Below, piece by piece: positions 6,738 through 60,600 of a stretch of 64,000 bases of DNA (its first letter is position 1; each line of letters begins with the position of its first letter). A program made the position numbers and the translations under genes. The notes beneath the pieces were generated by a model. The model did no database searches. It was not told the origin of the DNA and saw only the letters and a program-made list of their open reading frames with translations. Source of the DNA: Tubulanus polymorphus (Eukaryota > Nemertea > Palaeonemertea > Tubulaniformes > Tubulanidae); the NCBI RefSeq assembly GCF_964204645.1, contig NC_134027.1, positions 7,180,485 to 7,244,484 on the forward strand, read 5' to 3'.

Positions 6738-9700
6738 TTAAAGTTTGACAGCTTTCTTCGTAGCAGTTCCCAACTCAACTGTTCTCGCACGTTGACCAAA
6801 ATTCAAGCTACATAAAGTTTCATTGACGTTCTTTTCAACCGGGGCAATTTGAACGATCATCAGAGTTTTACTTTCTCCCCCTAGAAGGTATAATCAAATC
6901 AAAATTGGTGTATGATATTATTTCCCATTGTTCCATAAAGTAAATCTTACAATAGATTTACCCCGCTGAAAGAGAAGACTTTACCTAATGAATCCTGTAG
7001 AAGGTACGTCAGTTTTGAGTTTCTATAAGGAATGTGAGATTGTTTATTCTTCAGGGCATGGATCACATCGCCGAGACTGGAGAGACTTTTATTGATATTT
7101 TGGGCTTCTTTTAGACGGGCACCATCTGCTCCCGACTTCGATACTCTTTCACTACCAGCTAAATCGACCAAATTCAGTTTCCCTAAAAACAAAACAGCAA
7201 TGTGCAATGAAACTCATCCTTTCCTTACAAGTATTATTTGGATAAAAAATACCAGTATACAATTTACCTAATGTCCGGACACCAGTGGTTTTGTTAGTAC
7301 CAAGAACGTTTATAGTTAACAATGCATGAGACCTCGATGAATGTTCATTCATGTTTGTACTGGCTGTAACTCTATTCATACGACCAACAGTAAATGTCTG
7401 AATTGAATAGAATTCTCGGTGTTATCACAAAAATATTTTACCAATAGAAAACCGGCAAGACCTGTGACTGAGCTTTTTCCAGAGTTGAACAATCGTATTA
7501 GGAAGAAACGTACCTTGTTCACTTCAGAAACATTGCTAACTTCTATACTTGTTAATCCTGGTACGTACAATGAGCTATCCTGGTTCATTTTTACATCCAG
7601 TTTACGAAGGGGGTCATTACTAAGCAAATCTCTGTAAACATGATATGAGAATATGCTCCTAATACAGGCACTTATCTTTGTGGATAAAATAGTCATATTT
7701 GAAGAGGGTATGTTTCTCCAGATTCTATAAATTACCTGATCATTTCATTATAGATTTCCATAACACTGACATTGATGCTGTAAACCCAGTCAGTTGATCG
7801 TTCTTCCATTTCATTGAACAACTCAATCAATGCCCTCTGGTTTATGCCAGGATCATCATTTGGACCCTGTTTGATTAAAACATATAGTATTTTGAAAAAG
7901 ATGATAGCTACAGTTGCAGAGGAATACATGAGAATTGATTTGGTTTTTTGAACATACCTCCATGGTATAGGTCTTGCCCGATCCAGTTTGTCCATAAGCA
8001 AATATACAAACATTGTAACCATCAATTGCGCTAATCACTAGAGGTTTCACTTCTTCAAATACCTAGGTGCATAGAAAATGTGGTATGAAAATATATCACA
8101 TGACCATATAATTTGTCAGTCAAGTCAAGTGGTCAGTCTTTGTAGTGTCCCATACCTCTGGTTGCGAACTCTTATCGGTGAACACTCTGTCCATTTCAAA
8201 CACCTGCCTTCGTCCTTTGAACTGAACGTTTAACAGAGCATTATCATCTTCGTCATAGCTCAAACAATTCGTCGCCATGATACCTCCACCATCTTCTCTT
8301 ATTTTGGGACGGACTCGCGTAAAAACTCTGATATTTCCTTCAGATAAAATATTTACAATCAATACAAGTACTGAAGTGTACATGTGCATGAGAAACTCAG
8401 CATATCTAGCTAAATACCTTTTAATTCGACGAGTTGGTTATGGTACTTCTTGCGAAGTGCCATCTCCTTACGATATTTTTGAACCAATTCTTTATTTTTG
8501 TCATCAACTCCTGATATAAGACGGGTGATCTATGTATGAATATATGAGAAAGAAAAATATACAATCAACATAAACTTAACCACATCAAACTCTGACCATC
8601 GAATAAAACCAACTATGGGCTAAAAACATACATGTTGACTGGTGTTCTTCACTGCTGCTGAGACAAATTTCGGTAGAGCTTGACAATCATCTTTTAATTT
8701 CTTCTGTTCCATGAGAATTTCTCTTATAATTGGGTAAAGACAGGTAACTTTTTCTCTCATGACCGCTAGGTTATTGTAAGCAAAAATCAACTTCTTTTCT
8801 GCTTGTTGCTTGATAGCTTGAACAGTTGCCTGCTTTTGAGCTTCAACTTTGTGGAATTGGCGCTGCAACTGGGCTTCAGCAGATATACATTGTTCTTCAG
8901 CCTCTGTAACCTATAGGAAATATCAACAATTACTACATATCTACCATACCTAAACGAACATGAATGTGCAGATCTTAGATTAACCTTTTACCTTCAACTC
9001 TAGCTCTTTACATCTATTGACAGCATTCACTAGCTGTGATTTACTGGATACACACGCTTCTTGCATGTTTCTCAAACGTTTATTCATTTCAATGATTTCT
9101 TTTCTCGCTTCTGACAGTGCTTGTTTATCTGCAGTAGATTCAACTTCCACTCTCTCGATCTTTGTTATCACCTATATGCAATACGTGCAAGTAAGAATGA
9201 CTGCGAAAAATTGACGATATTTCGAATGCTGATTCTGAAATGATTGAATAACACTAACCTCAGGTTTTCTAGATTGTAAAGTGGTTAATTCAGTCATCAT
9301 GCTGTTCAGATTCATAGCGATTGCTTTGTTCTCTTCCTGCAATTTCTGAACCTTGAATTGATGTTCAGACTCCAGGTGAGATATCTTCTTTGATTTCACT
9401 TGCAGTTCTTCATCAAGTTGATCAACACGCGATTTCAGATCTTCTTTTACATCCAGGAGATGCTGACAAACGAAAAATAGATAATTATTACTCGCACATA
9501 TTTTCAGGATAAGTCAAGCCTATTATGTTCATGATTTACAAATTATGTAGATCTTGTTTCATAGACTGAGTAGGGAGCATGAATGATTCCATCACCTAAT
9601 TCTAAATCTATATTAGGATACAATAAGAATAACATGCCATGAAATGTTCCCAATATCATCTAGTCTGAAACCAGGCCTACTACAATGTACCCTGTGGTAC

Positions 9701-11875
9701 TTACCATGAACTGTTAAACCTTTAGGCTGCACACACTAAGGGTTAGTTGAAAGCCAATATTTTTAGAAATACAAGTAGTTCAAGTAAGATAGTTAGCCTA
9801 TACAAAGAGTAAGCATATACATGTAACAGTTAACAGGAGGGTCTTTGTACATTAGTAGGATGGCCAGTGAGTTTTCATAGAATGAACATTGCTCTAGTTA
9901 TGAGAATTATTTACAATAGGACTTGGTAGTATATTTGAAAATGCACACCATTCATGTATGTGTTAATACTAGTTTACTAGGGTAATTTCTACCTGGTGTT
10001 CATCAGACTTGATTGACTCTTGACAAATTTTTTGCAATCTATAATTCTCCATTTCAAGTCGATCATTTTCTTCTTCGAGTTTTTTCAGAGCCTTCTCCGT
10101 ATCAGTATTTGCAATTCCCTAATGCCGGTTGAAATCAAAAATATTCAACGATTCCTTATGAAAAGAAATTATCAAATACATGTAGTTATGAACTACCTAC
10201 CTGGACATTGCGCAAACTTATTATTTCTTCTTGCAGGTCGTTTTTCACTTTCTCCAATAGAGTGATTGATTCCCTCAATTTGACAATCTCATTGTTGTAT
10301 TCATTGCGTATGTACTCCGTCTGTGCTTGAGATGCCATCAGTTTACCAGTCATGTCAGCTTTCTCTTGTTGCAGTCTTTTGAGTTGCTGCAGTAACTGTG
10401 TGTGACCACTTGGTGTACGCACTATTGGACACTCTCTACCTGTAAACAACAGGTTGATAATTACCTATATGACCTGGGTTATGTAAGCTCTGAAGAAAAT
10501 TTCTCATCAACTGTTACCTGATTTTGATGACTGAGTTAGTTGTTTTTCTAGCTCCCCAATTTTTGTTTCTTGCTCTTCTAACAACTCCTCTAGATGGGCA
10601 ATCATGCCTTGTTTTTCTTCCAAATTCACCTCATGAGATTTCCTCATTATCTTGATCTGTTGTTTTTTGGTGAACTCCTCGCGAGTTAATTTTTGTTTGT
10701 ACTGCTTGCATTTATCTGTTAACGTCTAGAAAATGATCAAACACAGGTTGAGGGAGTGGTTTTTAGGTATGATCACACTTATGATTGGCTGCACATAAAA
10801 ACGATTGGCCTACCTTAATTCTGAAAAGGAGATCATCTCTTTGAGCATTTCTTTCAATTAGTTCTCTCTGTATAGCATGATATTCTATCATCGTCAATTC
10901 ATCTAAAAACATTGAAGACATTGAGCTACAGGCCAATGTTAATTTCAACTCGTATCTTCAAAACTGTCATTAAACTTAGGCCTACCTATCTTCTGAGGTT
11001 CTTCAGCTAGATCTTCTTTAGAACCATTTACATCTTCAATCAGTTCATCAGCTACAGATGATATAGACATGTAATATCAGCTGGGGTTCAGGGTTTAAAC
11101 ACGGACTTGACACAAAAGGATTTTGACCCCAGTATCCTAGGTACTATATATAAAAAGACTTTTTTAAATATAGTACCTAGGATACTGGGGTCAAAATCTT
11201 TTTGTGTCAAGTCCCTGTGGGTTTTAAGGTGATGAACCTGAATTAGTGTGAAAGCTTTATATCAAAGCCCAAATAAGATTTATTATAGGACAAACAATAG
11301 GCCTGGCCTAATTTCTTACCATCAAGACCCAGTTGTTCACGCCATATTTCAGCACGCGATGGTGAAGGTTTCGCACCTTCCCTCGGCGTAAAAACCATCG
11401 GAGTCTTAAATACAGCTTTGACCTATAATGAAAAATATTAGCTAGGTGTATTACTTTTTCATTCATTCATTTAAATACTCCAGCACACTCGCATTCGCGA
11501 GTATTTTTTGGAGCGTGCGCGTCTGTGTTAGAAGAGAAAGGAAAAGAGTGTGTTATGGAAAATTCGATTAATAATAATAATTTCGATTAATAATAATAAT
11601 TTCGATTAATAATAATAACTTTTCTTTCACTATCATCCAGTTCATTTCAATCAAAGTTTCTTATATCAATCCCATAAAAGAAGGCCTTTTTGGCGGGAGT
11701 CGCATCAACATCTTTCGGGATAGCAGGGCAAGTCTTCACCAAGAACCTTTTAGTGTCTGATGTAGCCCTACCACAGACAGAGATAAATTTGGGGAAAATG
11801 CTTAAATTATTTTAAGGCTTATTGCAATTTATGAAAAAAAGAGTGAATGCTAAAAGTAAGCAGTACCTTAGCCAT
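6738..11875 (-). CDS. KIFC3: KIFC3-like kinesin-14, C-terminal motor
   Basis: Eighteen exons join in frame to 873 aa: 11875-11867, 11422-11320, 11051-10986, 10902-10814, 10725-10518, 10439-10201, 10118-9993, 9462-9259, 9171-8992, 8910-8632, 8529-8418, 8337-8156, 8062-7958, 7866-7736, 7631-7514, 7397-7268, 7182-6985, 6880-6738. Residues about 90-530 are Glu/Lys/Gln-rich coiled coil. The neck [15 protein letters not shown] starts the motor near 535, typical of minus-end-directed kinesin-14. P-loop GQTGSGKT is at about 623-630, switch I NEHSSRSH at about 734-741, switch II DLAGSE at about 766-771, and the protein ends [13 protein letters not shown]3 proteins act at adherens junctions, Golgi and centrosomes; the role here is inferred from the family. 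The first coding exon holds only MAK. The start is 135 bp from that of THUMPD3 on the other strand. Confidence 0.92.
9463..9992 (-). other. Long kinesin intron, no feature seen
   Basis: This 530-bp intron separates two coiled-coil exons. I see no repeat, RNA gene or extra exon in it. Confidence 0.6.
11100..11219. mobile_element. hAT-type MITE, family B, copy 1
   Basis: A near-perfect palindrome of 120 bp. The ends are CACGGACTTGACACAAAAG and CTTTTTGTGTCAAGTCCCTGTG, and the arms share GACCCCAGTATCCTAGGTACT. It is flanked by GGTTTAAA (11092-11099) and GGTTTTAA (11220-11227), an 8-bp target duplication with one mismatch, as expected for hAT elements. It lies in a kinesin intron between exons 11422-11320 and 11051-10986. 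The second copy is at 41328-41458. Confidence 0.82.
11563..11618. repeat. Minisatellite, 19-bp unit x3
   Basis: Three head-to-tail copies of TTCGATTAATAATAATAAT, the last one base short, in the first intron of the kinesin gene. Copies look identical, suggesting recent expansion. Confidence 0.9.
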
Positions 11876-16116: not shown

Positions 16117-19100
16117 CTAAACAATACTATTCAGAAGTCGGAGACAGTAGTTCCGATCATTAATCCAACTATCTCGTTTCATGGACAGTTCATCATAGTG
16201 ATCAGAATCTGCCTGTATACAAGCACCAATGTACGCCGCGTGATAACGGTTTGGCATCGCGTGAACTTCCACTACGCACGACTCTGGCGTCATCTTCTCT
16301 ATTTCATACTGAATACGATCAGCTAATCCCGGCAACATGCTTCCACCTCCACTCAGATAAATACTTCTGTAAACACAAAAACGACACTAAACAAATTGCC
16401 TTATCATCCAGTTGCATAAATATAATTAAACGTTCATTTTACCTGCACAGTTCTCGCCTTGTGTCCATAGGACATTCCTGTATGGCTTTATAAATCACTT
16501 TGTGCAAATATGGTAGATCTAGACCCCAAAGTTCAGTTTCAAATAGACCCTCCGTAGCAGTGAATCGACCAACATCAAGGGAAACATCACTAGTGTAGTA
16601 AAATTGACAAAGTTAAGGCATAAAGGATTCTGAAGTTTAGCTACTCGAATCAAGTCAACATACCTCCAAGTTTTATACGGAAGATCATATTCCGATAGAT
16701 CAACACTTCTTTCATATTGATCTTGATTTTTGCAACCATTTGACAATTCTTCCGCAAAGTTCTTGGACACAAAACATGTCTAGGTAAAATCAAAATATTA
16801 ATTACGGAACAAAAAGCATTTCTTCATCTAAAAAGTGACAAATAATCGCGCTGACCTTCTCCATCACAAGTCTGCTGAGCAACTGTTCAACTGGCACCAA
16901 AAATCTATATTTATTTTCAGCTAGGTTTTGGTTTAGAGACTCCATTATTTTTGCTCCTCCAATCGGTTGCCTTGTTAATCCACCAGCCATTAAGTATCCT
17001 GTAAGTAAGACATGAAGAACTAGTGTCATATAAAATATTTCTTTGTACTGCTCTTAGAAGCAGCAAGGGTAAATATATACATAAACCAAATATCAAGACC
17101 ATACACTACATGTGTATCGAAAACTTCCCAAGAAAACTAATTCTGTCAACAGATGGTTGGATGGACGTCGGACAAAAAGTGAACATAAAGGTCTACTGGG
17201 ACTGAAGTCCCAAGTTGGCAAAAGCAAAACGTTTTTCATAACCTACCATCAATTACAGGTAGGACATCATATCTATCACCGATGTCTACGACAATACCAG
17301 ATTTTGCTCTGTATGCATGTAGAGCCAGGACTGCTTGATGTGCAATTTGAACACTTTGAATATGGAACTTGTTGAATAGTGTGTCCATCATTATCTCAAG
17401 TGCTTTGGCATTCATCTGATGCGGAATACTTAGCATGACCTGAAATTCAAATTGTGAGTACCGATATCACAAAGAGAAAGGAAAAATACATTGCACATTA
17501 AATTGCAATTACAACAATTTCTCATTCTTACTTTATACTGAGAGGTTTCAATGTCCAATTGTTCAAACAGTAGATCAACAAATCCAGGTATAGTTTTAGC
17601 AGTGAGCTAAAATCACAAAAAATCTATGTTTACATGATATGACAATAAGAATTCTACCAGTACCCTATGTCATATGACATTTCAGTTGATATACCAGGTA
17701 ATGCAAAACTAAACAAATCTACCTCATTGAATTTCAATGATGGCCTTAGAGGATAAACCACATCAGCAAAACGCCTCGAATTTGGTTTAAATGCATCAAA
17801 TCCATACACGATACTGTTCGATTTTTTACTGATTGCCGCTACAGTTGGGAAGAACAAAGTTGGAAGAGAAGCTAAAAGAAAAATTGGAGGAATTGTAAAA
17901 ATTCATTCTTAAATTTCCATGGAGATATTTCATTAAGAAAGAGCTATTTTAACGTTTTTTGATTATCTCACGTACGTTGATCACCCAGCACACCAGCCCT
18001 TATTGACGCACTACCAATGTCAATAATGACAATCTTCTGAAACAATTAAAAGCTACAGCTTTCAGACTCTGGATTCAAACAGAGAGAGAAACATAAGCGG
18101 AACATATACTAACCTTACGTCCGTGAGACTTAGGATTTAATACTGGTCGTACGAACCTCATCTTCGCATTATCAACAGTTTGTGAATTCAGCGCGGTCAT
18201 CCATTGTTCTTGATCCTTTTCGGAGGCACATCTGACAACTAAGTAATGACCTCTCTGGAATAGAAAAAGATTTGGTGATATCCCAATAGCAAGGGTTCAG
18301 CTTTAGAGCCAAATCTAGCTAATAACTTTGAAACTGGCTTCAGATGAAAATAACCTAGATGAATGCAATATTGAAACCTGATACACCCAAGTGATGCTTG
18401 CTTACTAACCCGGTCGTCGATTCCGATAAGTTGATAACCATTATCTTCAATTACTCCACCCATAAGTTGTATATGTCCAACTTCAATATTACAATTACTA
18501 GACTAGAGTTTATACAAAATAATGTACACAGTGTTAGAACCAACTTGGACACAATAGAATTCATTAAGAACAATTAATAAACAAAATTGCTTACTTCAAA
18601 GAAATATAAGAAACCATCTTTCGCTCGGAAAAATTGCTTTCGCCATGTTTTCAAAAGTGTGGCCTTTTTTTTGTTCGCTGGAAGCCTCTCAAGTACGCCT
18701 TCTATATTTATATAATGCTTTGACACATCCACAATATTCTACAGAAAACAACAAATTAGTGGTCTCCTGTATATACCGGTAAATCATATAAATCTATTGA
18801 CTACAAAACCCTTACTATGAACATACCTCTTCAAAATGCTTTACTTCATACAGTTCCTTTAAAAGCTTAATCTAAAATACATCAATATGTTTCAATGATA
18901 AACTTTATGTATATCTGAAAATTGCAATGAATACTGTATCTGACAGGTGTAATGGTGTGGTGACTATAAACCAGAAATGGACCCCATCATTTAAAAGTGG
19001 AAATGGCATGCTTACTGGATCCCAGTTGATAACTGATGGTCTGTCTTCAACCTTTTCATCTTCATATTCATCGGTAGACAGAGTATCGACGGTAATTTCA

Positions 19101-20889
19101 GTGACATTCCTATCATCTGTATTGCTTTCACCAATTGGGGGATCTTTCAAGATATGATTCACTTCGAAATGTGAAGAGTTATCTACAACATCATCACCAA
19201 CTACAGCATTCATGACAGAACTATTTCCTGAATTGTCCACAACTGAAAATGGAAAATAGGAAAAGTGAATCAACTAAGATGAGTACGCTATTTATTAAAC
19301 TTCCAGATGTACACAGTTTGATACTCACTGCTAAGAGAGTTTAACTGTATTTCAACTTTGCATTGTGAATGAGAATCTGTGTCCTTTTTTTTCGAAGAGA
19401 CATCATTTCCCTCATCCACACCCTCTATATTCTTATTGGTTAAAGACTTATCCTCCTCCGATAATGACACATCACAGCTGGTTTTCGGTTGCGGAGTTTT
19501 CCTCAGATTTATCGTGAAGGTATTATCATCTTGAAATGTCAATTCCCTCGAAGATGGTTTCGTTGTTGCCCGCGGCGATGAAGCAGTTGCTGAATTGTTA
19601 ATACTATTGGATGACGCTTGAAAGACCACGTTTGGCGAATTTGAATTTGGTGTATCCGATTTTCTTCGCATTATCCCCCACGGTGTTTGGAATCCATTTT
19701 GATCAGACAGGTTGTTATCAGAGACATTTTTTGGGGTGAGCGACGTCACGGAAGAATTCAGTTTTGGCGTCAGGGAACTCTTACTAGTATTTTGCGTTTG
19801 AGATTGCGAAGGTAAGGAGGCCGTTGATGAACTTTTCTTAATCGATCCAGCTGAGGCATAACTCACCAAATTGTTATGGCTCTGAGTGCCTTTCAACGAA
19901 GCTTGTTGACTGCATTCAGCGTTTCTAACGATCCATGAATCAGAATTTTTCTTTCGAGTACCAGCTATACCAGCATTTCTATTTTCAAAATCACTTCGCT
20001 GAAGCAAGAATGTATAATAATAATAGTTTAAACCGGTAATATGTATAGAACCAACTACATAGAAAATTTATAACGAATTTATTTGACAAAAATTAAAATC
20101 AAAAGACATTTAGAACTCTCACTAGAGATCATCACTCAAGAGATCATTGTATTTAAGCAAACTCAAATGATGGCAAAAAACTATTAGCCTATTCTAACCA
20201 GGTGAGACGAGAAAATACACAATATCCATGTAAGATGATAATGAGAGAAATCCTACAATAGATACAGCCAAAACGAGAAACTTGAATAGAAGAGTATATA
20301 TATTTTCGCATCATTTCGGCTAAAGACTATTAGCCATCATCAGTATGCCTGATGATGGCTAATAGTCTTTAGCCGAAACGTTGCGCAAATATATATACTC
20401 ATCTATTCAAGCTTTTTGTTTTGGCTGAATTTACTGTGGGATTTCTCCTTTCGTTTTCTAACCAGGTCTATTCACATGAAATGTCAGCCTACCCGATTGA
20501 AACAAATTTGAGTTTTCTCCAGAAGATCCTTAATCTTGTCATGTAATTCTCCGATGGAATGATATTCGGGTGAATTCTCATCAGTTATTTGGTCATTCAT
20601 GCGCGCAAATTCCTCCTGATCTTTCGTGATTTCATCTTCCAACGTGGATATTATTGCAATCAGATCCTAAAAAAATGAAGGTCAATGGCTCTCAAATCAG
20701 TCTTGGCAACGATACTTCCATCGAAAAGTTTCAGTAATATCCATGTATATGCAAGCATAAAGCTGGAGTTCCTATACTTTCGATACCCCAATCAGGGTTC
20801 ATTTCACAGATTACCTGCATAGCCATATACTTGACCGACTTGGTGAAATCAGACAGATTGCATGTCAACAGTTCAGGTGGACAAGTCAT
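16117..20889 (-). CDS. Coiled-coil / PH domain / actin-related protein fusion
   Basis: Sixteen exons join in frame to 900 aa: 20889-20815, 20666-20493, 19998-19329, 19242-19016, 18871-18827, 18738-18595, 18502-18410, 18254-18114, 18036-17976, 17871-17723, 17606-17532, 17439-17247, 16998-16856, 16779-16664, 16589-16443, 16366-16117. Residues about 1-83 are helical; 84-385 are Ser/Thr/Asn-rich and probably disordered. A PH domain spans about 400-505 (GVLERLPANKKKATLLKTWRKQ, ending in the Trp helix SEKDQEQWMTALN). From 524 to the end (377 residues, the length of actin) is an actin fold: phosphate loop 1 DIGSASIRAG, Gln equivalent to actin Gln137 in HQAVLALHA, phosphate loop 2 DIGDRYDVLPVIDGY, and LSGGGSMLPGLADR with YIGA near the C-terminus. 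It may therefore bind ATP and membrane lipid. It is too divergent to assign to a standard Arp class. ATG follows an acceptor directly; a further upstream exon is possible. Confidence 0.85.
20246..20446. mobile_element. Palindromic MITE, family A, second copy
   Basis: Ends AGAAATCCTACA and TGTGGGATTTCT, inner ends CAGCCAAAAC and GTTTTGGCTG, and a long central palindrome (CGGCTAAAGACTATTAGCC against GGCTAATAGTCTTTAGCCG). It shares GGCTAATAG, GATGATGG and AACGTTGC with the element at 733-903. It lies in intron 2 of the PH-actin gene. Around 20349-20379 it reads CTGATGA, a hairpin, then GAAAC, which resembles a hammerhead-ribozyme core. Confidence 0.75.
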
Positions 20890-27800: not shown

Positions 27801-30800
27801 GTAAGCTGATTATCCAGTACTGTATATCATAAGAAGGCCTCGCAAAAAGCTGATTTCTTTTTCCATTTAGTCTATTGTATTCACTTATATCATTGATTGA
27901 TAATATCAAAATTCTATGGGCGTAAGCATGTAAGGGTGTGGTCAGACAGCAGAAGATTAAAGCATTCAAAGAGATTCAGCATTCATAGTTTTTTGCACTC
28001 ACACAACAGGGTTTGACAAAGATTACCTTTCAATATCATAAGCTCTAGAGTAGAGTATTACTGGCAGCTCTTATTGCGGTTTTAATCCACTAAGGTTGCC
28101 TTGCCGCAAACAGATGGCTATTGCGGTTTGTTTGTGCGAAGTAGTTGTTACCACCCGGATTATCTAGTTTTACAGTAGACATTTACAAAAATCAAAGCCT
28201 AACCATCTCAGGTAGGTGATATGGTTGCTCTTAAAATCATGTGTCAAATAATTTGTTTTCTTAATATTAAGTTAGAATGAATAACCATTTACCAAACATT
28301 GCTAAAATCGAGGCTTCAACTTGATAACTCAATAAATTTTTTTATTGTGGGTTTGATTCGTGACCAAAACATGAATGAAATGTCATAAATACACTATTAG
28401 GTATCGATCATTTATTACGTACGCATAAAATTTGAATTTTTCAACCCCCCTCCCCCTCTGTACGTTAAATCGGCAATTTTTTCATATACACTAAGCATAA
28501 CAGTGCGCAATTGCACTGACAACTCCCTCCTCCCCTAATGGGTACGTAAATAAATGAATGACCCCTTATGCAAAATTATCAACTCTCATGATCTTACATG
28601 ATTAGAGCATATCTTACTCAAATGCATCACTTGTCAACTGATCCATGAGAATCTAAATGATACTGTACATGTGTGGCTATCAGACAATTTTCTTGCAAAA
28701 ACTTTTTTTTTGATTGAAAGGAATACTGGCCAGGCCTGTGCTGAGCTCTTTTGAGGGGCAGTTCTATTTCAAGAAAAATGGCACTTTTTACCACGAAAAG
28801 GGGCACTCCAGTTGAAAAAGGACAGAGAGAAGGGGCGGGTAACTGAATAAATCATTTGAGAATGGATAATTTTCAATTTCCATTTAAAAAACATGGGAAT
28901 TGTATCTAAATTCTGAAAAAAATCTTCACCCAAATTTGTGGACACTGACTTTTTGACAGGCCTTTTAGGGGGTTTGTTCACTACCCCCGAACCCCCCCCC
29001 CTCGGCACGGGCCTGCAGGCATACAGTGTTAGTATTTTTCTACTGTTTGAATTTTCAGAAATCATACGTGAAATTATTACATCAATAGTACACGTTATAT
29101 TTCAATATATACATATCAATATGATACGTGAAACTTCACCTACAACAACGCACAGCTGGAAATGCAGGTGCTTTTATTAAAAGCACTGACACATATGTTT
29201 CATTTCAAATCTCATTAAACCTACAAGTTTTCTATCATAAATATACAAGCTTAACAGTAAATCCCAGCATGTATGAAATATTTTATTTTCTTATTTTTGA
29301 ATCAGCGGCTTCACATGTAAGTTTGTCAAGTGCGGAAATTAAACGGAAGTTTATATTTTCACTTTTGAAATTTATAAATTCCTCATTGGGGCGAGATAAG
29401 CTGCTAAATTTGGTAGAATATGGCGGCTCTCTGGGAAATTTGATTAATTCAGATTTCAAAGGAGGATCAAGTTAGTGATGTAGGTACATGCTACGAGCAA
29501 TCATCTCAATTGCTCGTAGGTACATGCAAATATCATTCTCTTGTATGTTAATTTGGCACTTGGACACAGTAGTTCCCTGAATTCTACTCGAATTTAACAG
29601 GAAAAAACATTCAATCTCACTGATTTTTTACTTGGTTCATCCGACGAAATATTTACAGCCACACCATTACCAAATAAGGCAGAGTATACTTAATACTAAT
29701 CAGAGACAGAGCGAATGAAATGAATGTATAATGACACGCCCAAACTCAGAAAACAAAGCATTTTTGATTGTATCACCATTTCAGATTAAATGGTTTTACT
29801 AAAATCGTCACTGTGGAACTGCTTCGAGCTCTTCATCAAATCAGTAATGAATTATACTTTTTTTTTCCAGGATGAGGACGATTTGTGGCACGATGTTGTC
29901 CTGTTTGACGAGGAAGCTGAAGTCACGTTACAAAACGTTGATCGGGTTGATCACGATGTTGCTGATCACCTGGGTCACCCTGTCATCGCTGATCATGGTA
30001 AACCAACAGGTCGTCGTCAACCAAAGGTCTCCATTCGGCATGGATGATATCGTGCAAAAGCAAATCATACAACAGAGGAGACGGTCGTCGAAGTTTCAGT
30101 TGAAAGACGAGCCGCAGCGAGTGCGTTTAAAATTGAATGTGGCAGAGGATAAAAATGATAATACAGTGCATCTTATATTTAACGACGATAATGAACTCGC
30201 CGAATTGTCTTTACCGAAAGATGTTATCTCACGTATGAGTTTGAATTTAACCCTCGAGTTTTCCGTCCACCACAATTTGCCGCGAGGAATAACCATCGAC
30301 GCGATAGTTCCTGAATTCGCCGTGTGGAAGATGCGTAACAACACGTTTTGTCGAAACAAGTTGGTCGCATTCGCCAACGAATTCGCGTTTTTGGAAAACG
30401 TAGTCGTTGACCGGACGAGAGCGCATGGTCGGCGAGGCGGTGAGGAATTACAGTCAGTCATCAATCAACCGGAAAAAAAAGAATACTTCAAATTCGATAA
30501 AGGGTTTTTCCGTTTACCGTGCAAAGCTGACCCTTCGTACAAGTTTGCGAATAAAAATCACCTCAATCAATGGATATCTGTCGTCGACGGCAACGACGAT
30601 TACTACAATAAATCGAAGATTGCAGAAACGAAAAAGAAATTTACGCTTGCCATCACACGCTACGAGTTCGCCAATCTTTACCACACGATGACTGATTTCT
30701 ACAATGCATTTCTCATGATAAGGTTCTTCAATAAAAAGCCAGATGATACGACCATTCTGTTCGTTGACGGTCACCCGAAAGGATCATTAGATAGCATTTG

Positions 30801-33800
30801 GTCTAAATTATTTAATGAGGTGCAACGTTTAGGACACATGTCTAACTTAACTAAGTATAGCGAGTTAGTCTGGGCGGCACAAGGTTATAATAGTCCGATG
30901 AATCATCATAAATTAAAAAGCATACCCCTCGTCGAGGACTTTCGTGAATTTTTTCTCGCCCGCCACAATGTCACGGCAAGAATTCGGCCATTGAACTGTT
31001 CAAATGTACAGCTGCTTTTCATATGGCGACATGATTATGTTGCACACCCACGAAACCCGTCCGGTTCAGTATCGAGAAAGATAAAAAATGAACAAGAACT
31101 TGTCAATTCTATCACAAACAAATATCACAACATCCGCATAAAGGCTATTCAGATTGATAAATTTGATATGGCTTCTCAGCTTAAAATGGTGAACGAGGCT
31201 GATATTCTTGTCGGCATGCATGGAGCTGGCTTGTCACATACTTTGTTTCTCCCGAAACATGCTGGAGTTATTGAGTTTTATCCCGCCTACTGGGCCTCAA
31301 GTAACATTCATTTCAAAGCGATGGCGCACTGGCGCAAACTACACTACGAGCGTTGGGTGAACCGAGACCGTCATAATGAAAGCCCAAATCATTATACCAG
31401 AATTCCACCCGGAGTCATGACGTCCCTTCTACAAAATATACTGAACAAACTCAAATGTCAAGCAATGTTTTGGTGATAAAACTGCTCGTCATGAGTCACC
31501 TTTTACAATAGACTGTTCTATCAAACGAGGAAGTGTAAAATAACAAATGATCTTCCTGTTTTGAAATTTGTATAAATCGATGGAAGATGATGAATGGAAG
31601 ATGGATTTTCTTCCTAGGTTCAACATATTTTGTTTGTTCGAACAAGCAACTGCAAGATACATATATCGGTAGCATAACCATAGCAACAGCCAATTGAAAT
31701 ACCACCATGATGTAATATGACATTTTCAATTATATAGTTTTTGCAGAAGCTTATTTTCGGGGTGGGAAATTATTGTTTGGCTTAAGTCGATATCCTGTTT
31801 AGTTTCATGATCAAGTATTTTCACCTTAACACCAATGATTAGGTAACTTTCTTACTAGGTTGGTTTAAATTTCATCAATCTTATACTGTATAGATTTGGT
31901 TTGCAAATTGTTATCATGTTATACGTTTTTTAACATTCTTGTCCTAGGTGGCTGTGTTATTCAAGACAATCCTAATTTCTTATGCTTGGTAATTGATCAT
32001 TGATTTGATAATGTTTCTACCGGAGATAATCTTAATCAATTCATGGGAAAAGTTACTTTGTGGTGCCACACTCACTTACATATGAAAACATAACCGGTAT
32101 TATACTAGCATTTATATTCTAGGGTTACTGAATTTGAATATCAGCAAACGTTACTTTATGAAGAAGCCCTTGAAGTTCATTTTCGCAATCAGAAAATCAA
32201 CCTTTATGTATTCACAAAAAAATTAATGTCCCCTGAATGAAGCTATTTGATGCAACTGGTAGATGTGAAGACCTTTGTAATTATGGTCTCTTCAAATTAG
32301 TTATCCCAGAATGTAAGAATGTAATCTATTTTCGGCCCGGGTTATACTAAGATTTTCAGAAAGTGGTATTGCTTATATTCAAAATCATATACATGTATCT
32401 CTATGCTGTAACAGACTAATTCTAATCAAGTAACGATACCTATTTTTTCTAAAGTGTTGGGGAAAGAGAATTTCTTAACCCTCTTGTTATATTCACTATT
32501 TGTGATATGTTATTCAATCTACAATAAATACACAGATACATGCTTTGACATCATTATCACTGATTGAATGGACTTTTTATTCCGTCTGAAATATCACTCA
32601 AAATGTGTGCACACTGTGTGCAAACTACTCTAAATTTCCATGTATGGTGGCTCGAATCATCAAGACAACACTTTCCCAGCCGAGATATAGAGTACCAATG
32701 AGTTTTTTTGTGAATAAAATTATGCTTATTCAGTCATTTTTGTTTACATGATGTTTGGGATGTGGTGGTGGTGGGGAATATTTGATTGCCATTTAATCGC
32801 ACCCTAAAGGAAGAGCTATACATCATAGTGCATGGCATCAGGGACTGCCAGATTAAGCGCAACATGCAGTGAAAATTAATCATGGGAAAGTAAACCTACT
32901 GATGACACGATAGTGGTGACATCTCTCTTTAACAAATGCACATTAAAAAGAGTTTTAAAGTAAGATATGGCATGTGAACATGTTTATGTCTATCAGGGTG
33001 ATCATTTTCTTACCACAAATCAACTCCTTCGTCATACTTTCTTGCACTGTACAATAGTTCAGGTGCGCGGTACCACCTAAAAGTGAATTATGTATATTTT
33101 GTCTAAAACAATGATTTTTTCTGATTTTTTTCTAAAGATGAAATAAATTCTTTTCAAGATTTTGCTCACCGCGTGGCCACTTGATGACTGTACAAACGAT
33201 TTCCTTCATTTTGGAATAATCTCGCTAATCCAAAATCTGCTATTTTCAAATGTCCGGTTGAACTAATCAGTAAATTGGCTGGTTTCAAATCCTAGAAAGG
33301 AGAATATTAGCTATATTTTTCATGTTCCTTATTGCCAAAAGATATGAAAACCGATACAGTTTACGAAGAATTTCCAATCTCACCCTATGCATTATATTAT
33401 TTTCATGGCAAAATGCTACTCCTTTCAGTAACATAAGCATGTAACTTTTGATCTGGGCTTCTGTCAACGGTTTTCCTGAATTGTGGACAACTTCGGATAG
33501 ATCCGTCAGCATGTACTCAAACACTAACACAAATCCAGGACCATGAGGAAAAACTTCACGTAATTTCACCACCTGAAACAGAAATGAGTGATCAGCCACA
33601 TCTTCTCAATAATAATCATACAATGTTTGTCACACAAAAATTTCTGTTGCATCAAACGATGTAAATTATAGAACTTAAAAATATCTTCTTACATATTGAT
33701 TGTCCTCAATTTCCTGCAGAGCTTTTATTTCTCTGTAAAATACAAGCATTAAAAACTAATTAATGTACAAATTATAAGCTTTATTACCTCCCATCACAGA

Positions 33801-50278: not shown

Positions 50279-53200
50279 ATGGCTGGGAGTAATAAAAGAA
50301 TGGTAGAAGATGAGCAAATTCAAAACCAGCGAAGTAATAGGTACGTATTGAATTTGAAGTTAGTTAATGAGGCTACAATGACAATGTAGTAGATAGAAAC
50401 TACACGTTTACATTATGTTAATTTCTCATATTTTGGCTCTGTAATTGAACTGTTGGATGATGTGTATCTTACAGTTCATCATTGGGTACACAATTATGGA
50501 ACAATGTTGAAAGTTGGAAATGGCCAATTATTTACTGTATGGAATACAATATCGGATTCCTTGGACTTGAAAAGTTACACCCATTTGACGCTGGCAAATG
50601 GGGAAAAGTGCATGCCTTCCTGAAAGGTAAGCAGTAATGTTCCTGGTTACATGAATATGCAATAACAAAACCATTGGCTAGTTAGAATCCACAACTTAAA
50701 TCCAAAGTAGGTCCTACCTTTAGATCTCCAACTGATAAAAGTATGATGAAATAGGCTTTAACAGTTAAGCTGTCCAACCATTTATGAATGAAGTTTTGTG
50801 TTTTGTACAGAACACTCTAGTTGTGTGCATCTCTTCAGGACTAACACTTTCTGGATGAGCGCATTATCATTATGTTATCATCATTATTATAGAAGTCAGC
50901 ATGCTGAGGGATGATACGACAACCACTCCTATTGAAGCCACCGTCAATGATTTATTAGTGGTTCATACAAAGCGTTATATCAACAGTTTAAAGGTAAGTT
51001 GATGGTATCATTTAGAATTCTGGACTAATTTCCATAGATCTAAGTTCAGTTTGACTATCAGTTCATATCCAAAGATTTCACCCAACTGGGTCCTAGGTCA
51101 ATACCGTGGAACTGCTAATTTTGATACAAATCTTGTGTGAAAGGATTTAAGCATGGAAAGACCTATACTTGATGAAGACTTGAGAGATTTACTTTTTTTC
51201 TGAATCACTGATTTACTGTCGGTATAAATTCTTTGTTCTTGCTATTGAATTTCTATGCCGAATTTTTCACTAATTGATTTGCATGCAGCATGCTCTGTCT
51301 GAAACTTTTTTTCATATTTGTTTTACTTACCAGAGCTTTGCTTTACAAAATACATAAGCTATAGATGATGAAATCCCACAATTAAACTTGCAAGTTACTG
51401 AAGAATTCGCTTAATTCAGATTTTTCAATCCGGATTTTCATTTAATTTGGATGAAATATTTGTTCCATTTAACCTGGAACCATGTAAACTTTTATTCATA
51501 ATTAGGATTTTACTTAATTCTGAGAAATCTGGGCAGTCGCTAGTCTTCTGAATTATGTGAGTGAAAATTATGTGAGTGAAAAAATATGAATTGTGGCATA
51601 TTTCAATCTCTATTGTCTTTCTATCTACCGGTAGTACACTATTGTATGCAATGGCAAGGGGTGATGGTAGACAATTATTCACTAATGCGGCTTTATCTCT
51701 GTATATGTTATCTCTTTGAATAAATGAAGTGCGCTTTTGGCCGAAGAATTTTAAAAACTAACGAATCGCTTTGTTTCTTTCTTTTGAAGCTCACAAGTAT
51801 TTTGGAAGGCACAATGATCAAAGAGGTATAAGTGATTGATTAAAGACGGTCTTCATCTGAGCTAGAAAGATGACTGAGTATTTTACGGAAGGCTGCCTTT
51901 AATTGCATGTGTAATTTAATTCCCAAAGCAACCAAATTGGCATTTATAAAATCAGCCCTTTAGCCTGATTCGACTACTTTTCATAGCGTTTTAAGAAAAT
52001 TTTTAACTTCTTGGCATTTCATTGATGGGTGTTTATTGATGGTGTATAAATCTACTTGTATCTCATTTCTAATGTGGGTGCATACGTAAGACCTTTACTC
52101 TGTGAACTACAAGAATTTTATAAATGGTCGAAATAGCACTTCAAACTGTTTCAACATTCATGATTGATTATTTCTTTTGCCTATAATGGGTTGATGCTGT
52201 GCTTTCAGACTTTCACAATGTATAATATACCCACCATGATTTATGTTGTGTATTTCGTTCTTCTGTTTAAGTCGGTGACAAAACGTATTGACTTGAAACT
52301 TAATTTCATTGCGATAATTTTATTCTGCAGTGGAGCGTGAATGTTGCAGGTATAACTGAAGTACCACCAGTGGCTTTGGTGCCAAATTTCATTGTACAGC
52401 GCAAGGTCCTGCGACCGTTCCGCTTTCAAACCGGTGGAACGATTATGGTGAGCGCTGCTTCGCTTGTATTTTTCGGTGAAATCATGTACATTCTTAACTT
52501 CAAAGCAAAATTTTCATTTTTTTTCAGGGAGCGAAACTTGCTATGGAAAGAGGTTGGGCTATCAACATAGGAGGTGGATTTCATCATTGTTCCGCGAATC
52601 GTGGTGGTGGATTTTGTGCGTACGCTGATATCACATTGGCGATTAAGTTCCTCCTGGAACGAGATAAGAACGTGAAAAATATAATGATTATCGATTTAGA
52701 TGCTCATCAGGTAAATGCAGTTTAAATTTTATCCAAAGCTACAAAACCTCTCCCATAAAGAAAACCTCTGCCATACGGTACATTATTCAACTTTTTTTTA
52801 AAATTTTTTGTATCTTTAGGGTAATGGCCACGAAAGAGATTTTATGGGAGATCAAAATGTTTATATATTAGATATTTATAACAGAGGCATTTATCCTCAT
52901 GATGGTTTTGCAAAACGTAAGTCTTATAATGGTTATATTATTCTGACTGAAGTTTCAACGTATCACCTTGAAATATGAATTGAATTCAGCTACATCAGAA
53001 AATTAAGAAAACATCGTGAAACAGACTGAATATTTTCTCATGTATGGTGGAAATTTCGAAAGACATTTCTCGAGGCTGACATCTGATATTTTATCATTTT
53101 GTGGGGGGTTTTACATATAGGTGCAATCAAAAGAAAAGTTGAATTAGGTCTTTTCACTGAGGATGAAGAATATCTAAGACTAGTTAAAACGTAAGTGACA

Positions 53201-55584: not shown

Positions 55585-57196
55585 TTATCGCGAAGTTTTG
55601 TTGAATTGCATGAAATAAGCGGCTGATGGTTGATTCGTGTAAACTTCTTTATCCATATAGTCGAGATTAGCTTTCTGTTCGGCGGCTAATCGTTGATTTT
55701 CATCAGCTAGTTGTTTTTGAAGCTCCTTCAAGGTTCGATCTTGTTCTCGTTCCATTAAAATTCCAGCTCTGGCATTTACCATTTGCTGTCGTTCCCATTC
55801 TTTATTGCGCAGTTCTTCCTCTTGACGTAATCGCTATAAAACATAATACATGCTCAGTATTAGCATAAATACCAATGATTTTTTCCATGGCTAAAATTAG
55901 CAAAAATATTTCGTGTCCTTTTCACATGATTTTTTTTCAAAATAATCAGTTGAATCAAATAATGAACCTCTTTTTCTTTCATTTGATCCTCTTGAATCTT
56001 TTTGATATCTTCAATTTGCTGCGGGCTCATGCCTTTCCATCTGTCTGGAATAACACGATGTGCACCAAATGCGCTTTGAGCTTGTCCCGGGTTTTCAGTG
56101 AGAAGATCACCGAAAATACTGTTTGATATTTCGGTCGCGTTGTCATCCTCCTCCTGTTGTTTGTGGAGACGCTCTTTTTCTGCTGCTTCCCTGGCCTGAA
56201 AGAGTATATATTCATTTCAATAATCTCATTGTAGGAAGCCATGGACTCATCAAGACTAACAATCATTGGGTATCTCAGTACATATACCATATAGGCCCCA
56301 GGGTCTGGATTATGCATAAAATCTTAGTAATAGCAATTAACATTCTTCTAACACTTACCAATGCAGCATTGAAATCCGTGGTAGCAAAATTTATTGCCCT
56401 TCGACATTTATCTTCGGCATCCTTCAGCTGCATCGCTCGTTGGTCCAGCTCTCGCATTTTCAATTCGTGAAGACGCTCGGCCTTTTTCTGTGCTTGCTCT
56501 GCCTCCATTTTCTCTTTCGTCTGTGCTTCCGACCATGCGCGTCGTTGCTCGGATATGAATTTATTACGCGCCTTATTGTTGAGGTCTTCACCTTCGAACT
56601 TCTGCATGCCGGAAATACCGCATCTTGGATCGTCGTCCGTAACACGCGCTGGTTTGTCTTTCTTCAGGGCGTCAGGGTCGTTCATATCCCATTCGCGACG
56701 ACTGTCGTTTTGTTGATGCAGAGCTCTGAATTCATTTAGTGCTTGATTCAGTTCTCGAATATCGTGCTCCTGGCGCTTTTGTAGTAACATGGCAATCTTA
56801 TCATACCTCACCGCATCAGCAGCTGTGGAAGAAACCAAGTTGGCTTAGATTAAGTATCATTTAGTTTTTCTAATTTGAAGATATTACTATAATTTGGCCT
56901 TGAACGTACCGAAAGCTTCCTCACGTCTCTTCTCATAATCTTCCATCTGTTGCTTATCGGCAACTTGCTGACCGATGGCATCCAAGTCAACCTACCAATA
57001 CAAACAAATCCGAATTTATTTATAATATTAGCAGTTCACTAAGTGAGAATACATATCATGAGTGAAATATTATTCTTACCCCGATTGTGCGAACTCTTGC
57101 ATTGAAAATTCTGCTCTGTCTTTGAGCTTCCATGTTCCTACGACGCTCAATAGCGGCATATTCTTTGTGGTCGATGGGAAGATCTAACTTATACAT
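55585..57196 (-). CDS. RIBC2: RIB43A-like with coiled-coils protein 2, ciliary microtubule inner protein
   Basis: Exons 57196-57080, 56991-56910, 56822-56359, 56195-55968 and 55833-55585 give 379 aa (human 377). Nearly the whole protein is charged coiled coil. RIB43A signatures: [20 protein letters not shown] at the start, [17 protein letters not shown] near 135-150, and [18 protein letters not shown] near 265. The end is [28 protein letters not shown]2 lies in the lumen of axonemal doublet microtubules at the A-tubule protofilament ribbon. The chosen ATG matches the family start. One donor is GTTCAT (55967), which is weak but keeps the frame. It shares a divergent promoter with POC1. Confidence 0.94.
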
Positions 57197-57657
57197 AATG
57201 AACGTAGTAGATTTTTTTTTTATGAACAAACTTGGCGTAAATTTGAACAGAAACACTGCGACAACGAGTACTGGACACACTTCAAGTTGTGGATGCTCGC
57301 GCTCACACTTCTTCCTGGTTCGTGTCAATAGTTGCTATAGCGCTATGACAACAAATCCCTACACTAGAACACGATCGCTGATTGGTCTAAATATTCATAT
57401 CAATTGAATATCTAAATCTATTTTTCAATGTCATACGTATTTTTTTTTAAATAGATTCCTTTTTCTAAGTTCATAAACATTTGCTTTTCAATATCCATTG
57501 AAAAATATATTTAAATAGCCAAATATTTGATATTTTATTTGAAATCGCGCATGCGTACAAGTGCTATTACCGCCATATACAAAAGTGTTTGCGAGTTCTG
57601 AACAGATTTTATTCCGAAATTTTACTGATTTTCAATTGTTTTAGACGTTTTTACAGA
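57197..57657. promoter_or_regulatory. Divergent promoter RIBC2/POC1
   Basis: A 461-bp interval between the two start codons. It contains an X-box-like palindrome at 57331-57352 and a cluster of A/T runs. Both flanking genes encode ciliary or centriolar proteins. Confidence 0.6.
57331..57352. promoter_or_regulatory. X-box-like palindrome
   Basis: GTTGCTATAGC followed directly by GCTATGACAAC; each half has an RFX-type half-site (GTTGCTAT, and GTTGTCAT on the other strand). The halves match at 9 of 11 positions. Spacing between half-sites is 6 bp, wider than the usual 1-3, so RFX binding is a hypothesis. Confidence 0.45.
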
Positions 57658-60600
57658 ATGGCTACAAGTGTGGTAATGTATTTTACTATATTATTCTCGT
57701 TCGATATCAAATTTAGACTTTTAATTTCGAAATAACAGCCGTTTTAAAGCTTTTTCAAATTAAGGCAAGTTGAAAAAAGTGCTGCCACCTAGCGGTTTTA
57801 GGGGGTTAATTATTACTGTTAATTTAATTGGTAATGCTACAACACATTTATCAGTATGCTCTGAAAATCTGTTAGTCCGGTCACAAACACGTCCTCTGCC
57901 CAGATTTTTCCTGAGACCGAGTCTCAACTTCCATTCCAGTTTCTACCATTGGCATTATTAATTGATTAATTTTCTTTTCACTCGATCTCAGGGCGATCCA
58001 ACATTAGAGCGGCATTTCAAAGGCCACCGTGATACTATCACCAGCTTGGACTTCAGTCCGACTATGAAGCAACTTGGTAAGAACGATATGTCAGTCATTT
58101 TGTGACATTTCTTTTTTATTTCAATCACACTTTTTTCATTATCCGCTGTATAGCTTCTGGATCAATGGACTCAACGTTAATGGTGTGGAATTTCAAGCCG
58201 CAAATGAGGGCCTATCGATTTGTTGGCCACAAGGTAAAACCTTTACTTTGGCCGCCTCAAAATACAATACAAGACAAGTGAAATGTTATACCGATAGTTG
58301 AATTGAAAAGTACTTTTATTGATAGCTTTTTCTAGTCAGAATTAACCTAAAATCTATCATGAAAATGTTCCTCTAAATTTGATTTTTTTATAGGACGCTG
58401 TTATGTCAGTTTGTTTCTCTCCATCTGGTCACCTGATAGCTTCTTCATCTCGTGATAAAACCGTTCGATTATGGGTTCCCAGCGTGTAAGTTTAATTTCA
58501 ATTAGTATTATACATTAATCTTAATCAATTGATTAATCTAACCTATTGACTTAATTACAGGAAAGGAGAGTCAACCGTGTATAAAGCTCATACCGCTACT
58601 GTACGCAGCGTAGACTTTTCAAGCGACGGACAGTATCTATGTACGGCTTCCGATGATAAAACGGTGAAGGTTTGGACGGTGCATCGTCAGAAGTTTCTAT
58701 TTTCATTAACGCAGCACATGAACTGGGTGCGATGCGCTAAATTCTCGCCTGACGGAAGATTGATCGTCTCCGGTAGCGATGACAAAACGGTGAAATTGTG
58801 GGATCGACAAAGCAAAGATTGCGTTCATACGTTTTTTGAACACGGAGGGTAAGTCGTAGATCAATTTAGTAAATTTCATAGATAGTGTTTTTGAGTTTGT
58901 ATCGATGATAGTTCGATTGTAGTTTCGTAAACGAAGTTGCATTCCATCCGAGCGGCACGTGTATAGCTGCAGCCAGTACTGATTCAACGGTGAAAGTTTG
59001 GGACGTTAGAATGAACAAGTTACTCCAACATTACACAGGTATGCAGTTGAGATGATCATAGTTATAGAAAAATCTATCTCAAATCAATTTTTCACAGCTG
59101 TGAATTTGGATTTTACATGAATTATTTCAGTGCACTCGGCTCCAGTAAATAGTCTTTCATTCCACGCAAGTGGGAACTATTTGATATCTTCATCCGATGA
59201 TTCCACGTTGAAGATTTTAGATTTGTTAGAGGGTCGTTTATTCTACACTTTACACGGTCACCAGGTACGATTATTTGAATGCTTTTGATTATAAAAATTT
59301 ACTGTTTTTAGGGCTTACTTTCTTAATGTCTCCATGTCCCATGAACTGCTAAGCACGAAACAAGTTGTTTGATAGTGTAAATGATGAAAAACATTGCGTA
59401 CTGTGATGGTTGCCTCGTTTTGGCTAAGTCACCTGAATTATTTTGATGATTCTGCAGTGGCCATCTGATACACTTCCTTCGTTTCATTTGGAGATGTGTT
59501 CATGACCAAGTTACAAATTTACTACTTTCTTTTTTGTCCTGGGGATCGAGAATTGGGGGAAGGCCTGTCAGGTTTTAAGCGTTAGTTGTATGATATGCCA
59601 TTTGATGATTTTTGACTAGTATCCCTGTCACTTGACCAATACGCTTCTTGTAGAAATTTGAATATCAGATCCGGGAATTTGATATCTCGATCAGGAAATT
59701 TGGGATGAAAAAATGTGCGGGAACCCAGATTTTTATTCTATTTAACGTTTTATCTGTCTTGTGTTTAAGGGGCCTGTGACGTCTATTGCATTCTCGCGGA
59801 CTGGTGAATATTTTGCATCAGGTGGTTCGGATGAACAGGTCAGTGAGTCTAAAACGCCAAATGACTCCAGGTTGAGAACTAGAGCATGAATTGTGATTAT
59901 TTACTTTCAGGTTTTAGTTTGGAAGACGAATTTTGATCAACAAGAATATAACGAGGTTTTGCAAATGCACCAGGCTCGTAGTCAAAACGAAGCAATTCCA
60001 ACAATACGCGATATTCCTCCGAGATCTAAATCCCCTCACAAGTCTCCAAGTGGACGTTCTCCTCAGGTAAAATCACTTATTGATAAATACTCCACTGATT
60101 AGTTCCAGGGGTTCCATTTCATTTGTGTTGTTTTTACCAAGTGGGCATGACCCTGGACCCCTAGATCCAGTTCCAAAGTTGTGAGCTAAGATTTGACTCG
60201 CAACTTTAAAACTGTACCCCTAGTTTAATTCAAAATATATTCATGTCATCATCCATCATTTGGAGAAATCGCAACTTAGATTTATGTGGGGCCTTTGACT
60301 TATTTACAGCCAGGTCGTCCTGCGCTTAAAAATATGGCTGATGTTCAACCTTCTGTCACTGATGTTGGCCCTGCTTTATTTTCACACCCAATGGTGAGTT
60401 CATTTAATGGTTTCGGTGCCGGCTCTTAATCTATCCATTCAATCTAGGCTAAACAAAAATGATACCTTGTTTCTCCGCAGCGGCCGGGTCATTTTTGTAA
60501 AATATGATAGAAATTTATAAACAGTTCATTTCTATAGCGGCCAGGTCTGTTATGGTAAAATTGATCATGATTTAAAAAAAAGTAATGTATAGGGTAGATA

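Follow-up and report, generated by a model that had tools for sequence, protein, structure and literature searches.

A census of 32 human actin-domain proteins distributes them among conventional actins, centractins, actin-related proteins (Arps), actin-like proteins and POTE ankyrins, without naming any that bears a PH domain (PMC10175787), which agrees with the statement of an earlier note on the present DNA that no characterised Arp has a PH domain. Extra modules on actin-family proteins have precedents in POTE, where another folded domain is fused to the actin fold, and in filactin of Dictyostelium, where a long N-terminal extension precedes an actin domain highly similar to actin and a PH domain is not mentioned (PMC10175787, PMC2441452). 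Divergent animal Arps outside the canonical classes with localising N-terminal tails are also known, such as Arp53D, whose 40-aa tail carries no extra folded domain (PMC8291977). The gene presented here lies in a window of 64,000 nucleotides (the whole stretch of DNA analysed) on contig NC_134027.1 of the nemertean Tubulanus polymorphus. It shares the fusion with POTE, the long extension with filactin and the divergence with Arp53D, but the added fold is a PH domain and not the ankyrin repeats of POTE. PH domains are often membrane- or protein-binding modules, canonical Arps are brought to their site by partners, and the actin part of POTE is near-conventional. With PH and actin fold joined covalently in a single chain, an actin-fold module would come under the direct control of a membrane or a partner.

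The gene model was rebuilt independently by re-splicing the minus strand from 20889 to 16117 from the raw sequence. Each of the 16 exons is bounded by an AG acceptor and a GT donor, phase is maintained from end to end, and the product is 900 aa plus stop, as the earlier note had read it. The features are the following:
16117-20889, minus strand: complete coding gene of 16 exons and 900 aa plus stop, with GT-AG junctions and consistent phases
20815-20889, minus strand: exon 1, aa 1-25, with a tentatively assigned start codon
20493-20666, minus strand: exon 2, aa 26-83, charged, placed by splice and phase
19329-19998, minus strand: exon 3, aa 84-306, Ser/Asn/Thr-rich, open frame
19016-19242, minus strand: exon 4, aa 307-382, acidic, placed by splice and phase
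18827-18871, minus strand: exon 5, aa 383-397, placed by splice and phase
18738-18595, 18502-18410 and 18254-18114, minus strand: exons 6, 7 and 8, encoding the PH domain, all phase 0
18180-18705, minus strand: PH domain (PF00169), aa 409-501, in exons 6-8
18037-18113, minus strand: intron of 77 bp between PH exon 8 and actin exon 9, donor GTTAGT, acceptor TTTCAG
16120-18036, minus strand: actin fold, aa 524-900, exons 9-16 (PF00022, E-value = 1.8e-44; PDB actins, E-value ~1e-38)
17998-18021, minus strand: P-loop 1, DIGSASIR (actin 11-18), from alignment
17266-17286, minus strand: P-loop 2, DIGDRYD (actin 154-160), from alignment, H161 missing
16342-16356, minus strand: LSGGG motif (actin 299-303), from alignment

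Exactly two Pfam families, PH and Actin, exceed their cut-offs in the 900-aa protein, and none does so in the N-terminal 395 residues, the exon 2 segment included. Exons 1, 2, 4 and 5 were placed by splice and phase logic only. The ATG of exon 1 directly follows an AG acceptor, which implies that a trans-spliced leader or an exon without coding sequence precedes it. Exon 3 is open for 223 codons (chance p ~2e-7 at the local stop density), and this length supports the N-terminal part of the model. Residues 26-83 are probably helical or coiled, while the segments of exons 3 and 4 (aa 84-306 and 307-382) are both probably disordered, Ser and Asn being abundant over residues 84-382. Inside intron 2, at 20260-20430 on the minus strand, there is a near-palindromic inverted repeat, TTTCGGCTAAAGACTATTAGCCATCATCAG paired with its reverse complement, which is likely to be a small mobile element.

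The claim that PH and actin parts belong to one gene held up well and is strongly indicated by the structure of the junction. The joining intron falls in the ordinary small class, as the gene's other small introns measure 74, 76, 76, 86, 88, 92 and 92 bp, its donor and acceptor follow the consensus, and no AATAAA lies between the two parts. Exon 9 starts within the first beta strand of the actin fold, and the genomic sequence before it contains an in-frame stop and no in-frame ATG; no in-frame start codon lies ahead of P-loop 1. The earliest in-frame Met of the actin part is M620 in exon 12, so that a separate actin gene could begin there at the earliest and would lose P-loop 1. A wrongly merged pair of adjacent genes, one for a PH protein and one for an orphan Arp, would fit the phase-0 intron at the exon 8/9 junction and the fact that the fusion rests on genomic sequence, but we rejected it as very improbable in view of the small joining intron, the missing start codon of the actin part and the missing AATAAA. 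As far as the gene model goes, the PH-actin fusion is real, and it is unusual.

The PH profile matches residues 409-501 (E-value = 2.4e-6, 28.4 bits against a gathering threshold of 25.1) over positions 3-103 of 105, a full-length match above the curated cut-off that places the segment in the PH superfamily. The actin fold follows in the order first described, although not at once, since a 22-residue linker separates the two. Compared alone with solved structures, the PH part gave weak matches, the best being the GRP1/cytohesin PH domains (E-value = 0.07). It shares with them the KTW-K/R-x-x-[WF]F strand, which reads KTWRKQFF here and KTWKRRWF in GRP1/cytohesin, but there is no Sec7 domain in this protein. 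The beta1-beta2 segment IEGVLERLPANKKKATLLKTWRKQFF is basic, with a net charge of +5 over a 40-residue stretch, and the domain is neutral overall. In that segment, the phosphoinositide-binding class carries the consensus K-Xn-[K/R]-X-R, whereas the motif here reads R-Xn-R-K-Q, with Gln at the third basic position where GRP1 has Arg; compared by eye with GRP1, this mismatch lowers the likelihood of lipid binding without excluding it. Phosphoinositide targeting, proposed earlier as a specific property, is thus not borne out by the motif. Lipid binding is absent from many PH domains, and with its neutral overall charge and one motif arginine missing this one may bind protein only. Membrane tethering by the PH domain is plausible, and so is binding of a protein partner.

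The actin profile covers residues 524-885 (E-value = 1.8e-44, 152.4 bits against a cut-off of 27) at positions 5-397 of 410, and phmmer against the PDB matched actins at ~1e-38 over residues 526-881. This full-length match above the curated cut-off places the segment in the actin superfamily, and the PH domain and full-length actin fold first reported from this DNA are both recovered. The nucleotide site retains D11, G13, S14, Q137, D154, G156, D157, R210, E214 and the SGG of 300-302 (including G302). DIGSAS is located at 529-534, Gln653 corresponds to Q137, DIGD occupies 670-673 and LSGGG 822-826, so the active-site Gln and the LSGGG motif are where they had been said to be. The statement that both phosphate loops are kept stands for DIGSAS and DIGD but needs qualification for G15A, K18R, G158R and the absence of H161; K213M and K336Y are further changes at the site. 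Of the residues that mark an ATP-hydrolysing actin (D11, Q137, D154 and H161), the first three are present and H161 is gapped, its loss resting on a single alignment gap. Retention of Q137 with loss of H161 suggests, from actin enzymology, that the actin part may bind nucleotide with slow or absent turnover.

The surfaces used for polymerisation are another matter. Residues identical to actin amount to 2 of 15 in the D-loop, 3 of 12 in the barbed-end cleft and 2 of 13 in the plug, compared with 5, 11 and 7, respectively, in this genome's Arp1, which forms filaments, although low interface identity is no proof of lost polymerisation and partial Arp models of this genome score low too. The D-loop region is shorter than that of actin and the C-terminal end is replaced. 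Bacterial actins polymerise via other contacts. With D-loop, plug and barbed-end cleft not conserved, self-polymerisation or nucleation by this protein appears unlikely, and the label of nucleator was accordingly dropped.

We searched the genome (268 Mb, 77 contigs) with the PH-actin part, which recovered the exons of the gene itself and, less strongly, actins and Arps. No second PH-actin gene and no other match to the PH part were found in that search, so the locus is single copy. Several conventional actins are also present in this genome, together with apparent Arp1, 2, 3, 4, 5, 6, 8 and 10; the Arp10 candidate matches Arp10 chains in the PDB (E-value = 8e-58), and the remaining candidates were identified by eye on their motifs. 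In pairwise comparison the actin part scores highest with the conventional actins and with L034a, an actin-like gene (134-137 bits, 27-29% identity), followed by Arp2 (100 bits) and Arp1 (89 bits), while Arp3, 4, 5, 6, 8 and 10 give 15-58 bits, some of their models being partial. Conventional actin is therefore the best pairwise match and shares with this protein the complete fold, Q137, D11, D154, D157, E214 and SGG; it differs in having neither the 523-aa extension with its PH domain nor G158R, in keeping H161, and in its longer D-loop, its barbed-end cleft and its C-terminus, both of which are replaced here. At 27% identity and with its polymerisation contacts altered, the protein does not group with conventional actins. 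Nor does it belong to Arp1, 2, 3, 4, 5, 6, 8 or 10/11, each of which has a candidate at another locus and scores 15-100 bits against 134-137 for the actins, and the pairwise scores within its own genome agree with the earlier placement outside the characterised classes. Arp10/Arp11 (ACTR10) is likewise divergent with a weak second phosphate loop and was its neighbour in one low-power tree, but a separate ACTR10 orthologue exists in the genome and scores 31 bits against 134 for actin. Two maximum-likelihood trees, built from partial models with long branches, gave Arp10 as neighbour in one and Arp8 in the other; since the trees contradict each other, we took both affinities as long-branch attraction. 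The actin part is thus best described on sequence grounds as an orphan Arp, very divergent and fitting no class tested. A phase-1 intron in the Gly168 codon is common to the PH-actin gene and three actin-like genes of the genome, a weak hint of shared ancestry with actin genes. The L034 locus (G000:C2:22191500-22200500) contains a tandem pair of intron-rich actin-like genes, of which L034b evolves clearly faster (74% identity to actin vs 87%).

Our preferred reading, to which we give a probability of about 0.5, is that the protein would act as a tethered scaffold or cap whose actin fold does not polymerise. Tethering, either to a membrane or to a partner associated with one, would be the task of the PH domain, through the basic loop between beta1 and beta2, together with the long, flexible stretch at the N-terminus. 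The actin fold would bind ATP or ADP with slow turnover or none and would form no filaments of its own; anchored in this way, it could offer actin, or other partners with an actin fold, a docking surface, a cap or an adaptor, much like Arp4, Arp10/11 and other Arps that do not polymerise. The earlier note had proposed a membrane- or phosphoinositide-targeted actin-like ATPase or nucleator, possibly specific to a lineage, which we took to mean that phosphoinositides would recruit an actin-like ATPase to membranes, where it would form filaments or nucleate actin. The complete fold and the partly kept ATP site, which retains the catalytic aspartates and Q137, speak for that proposal, as do the basic loop and the GRP1-like strand of the PH domain; we nevertheless hold it to be improbable, as the shortened D-loop, the unconserved cleft and plug, the replaced C-terminal end, the absent H161 and the Gln at the third basic motif position all tell against it. 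Somewhat less improbable, though still unlikely, is a pseudo-enzyme actin joined to a PH domain that binds a protein (e.g., a small GTPase or a cytoskeletal protein), a pure protein-protein scaffold with no membrane role. The neutral PH domain with its missing arginine, the degraded nucleotide loops and the general failure of many PH domains to bind lipid would suit it, but key adenosine and phosphate contacts remain and suggest that nucleotide binding is retained.

Compatible with the tethered scaffold and with these alternatives is a widespread but uncharacterised animal PH-actin family, for which we see the chances as evenly balanced. An unbroken frame of 2.7 kb with an actin identity of only ~27% suggests long-standing constraint, and the shared Gly168 intron fits an old split; on the other side, a full-text literature search of partial coverage returned no paper on a PH-actin fusion, and the one zebrafish gene name tried there gave no domain information. 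With the comparison confined to literature of that coverage and to viral, bacterial and archaeal sequence collections, novelty is provisional, and the architecture may already be in databases unnamed. Some unnamed predicted proteins of fish or invertebrates may bear PH and Actin annotations, a point given no weight here. No relatives were found in viral contigs or in bacterial and archaeal genome contigs, collections without animals whose silence says nothing on distribution. A distinct, undescribed Arp class present in some animals and absent from humans, in which PH tethers an actin-fold ATPase to membranes, is a tentative idea that we consider doubtful. Standing apart from the canonical classes, the protein would represent an additional kind of Arp that humans lack, and it would offer a simple test of whether nucleotide switching is kept in divergent Arps after polymerisation surfaces are lost.

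Other genes were also recognised in the window. A kinesin gene at 6950-10725 on the minus strand has its coiled coil first and its motor last (PF00225, E-value = 5.2e-32 in one exon), and a 541-codon open frame at 29851-31473 on the plus strand contains a glycosyltransferase 61 domain (PF04577, E-value = 1.4e-17). A RIB43A-type gene, RIB43A being a ciliary microtubule protein, is located at 55588-57334 on the minus strand (PF05914, E-value = 1.7e-53 in 56278-56844), and WD40 exons of a POC1-like protein were read by eye at 58550-58849 on the opposite strand. Finally, an exon at 52498-52722 on the plus strand (GWAINIGGGFHHCSANRGGGFCAYADITLAIKFL) resembles histone deacetylase 11, by eye only.
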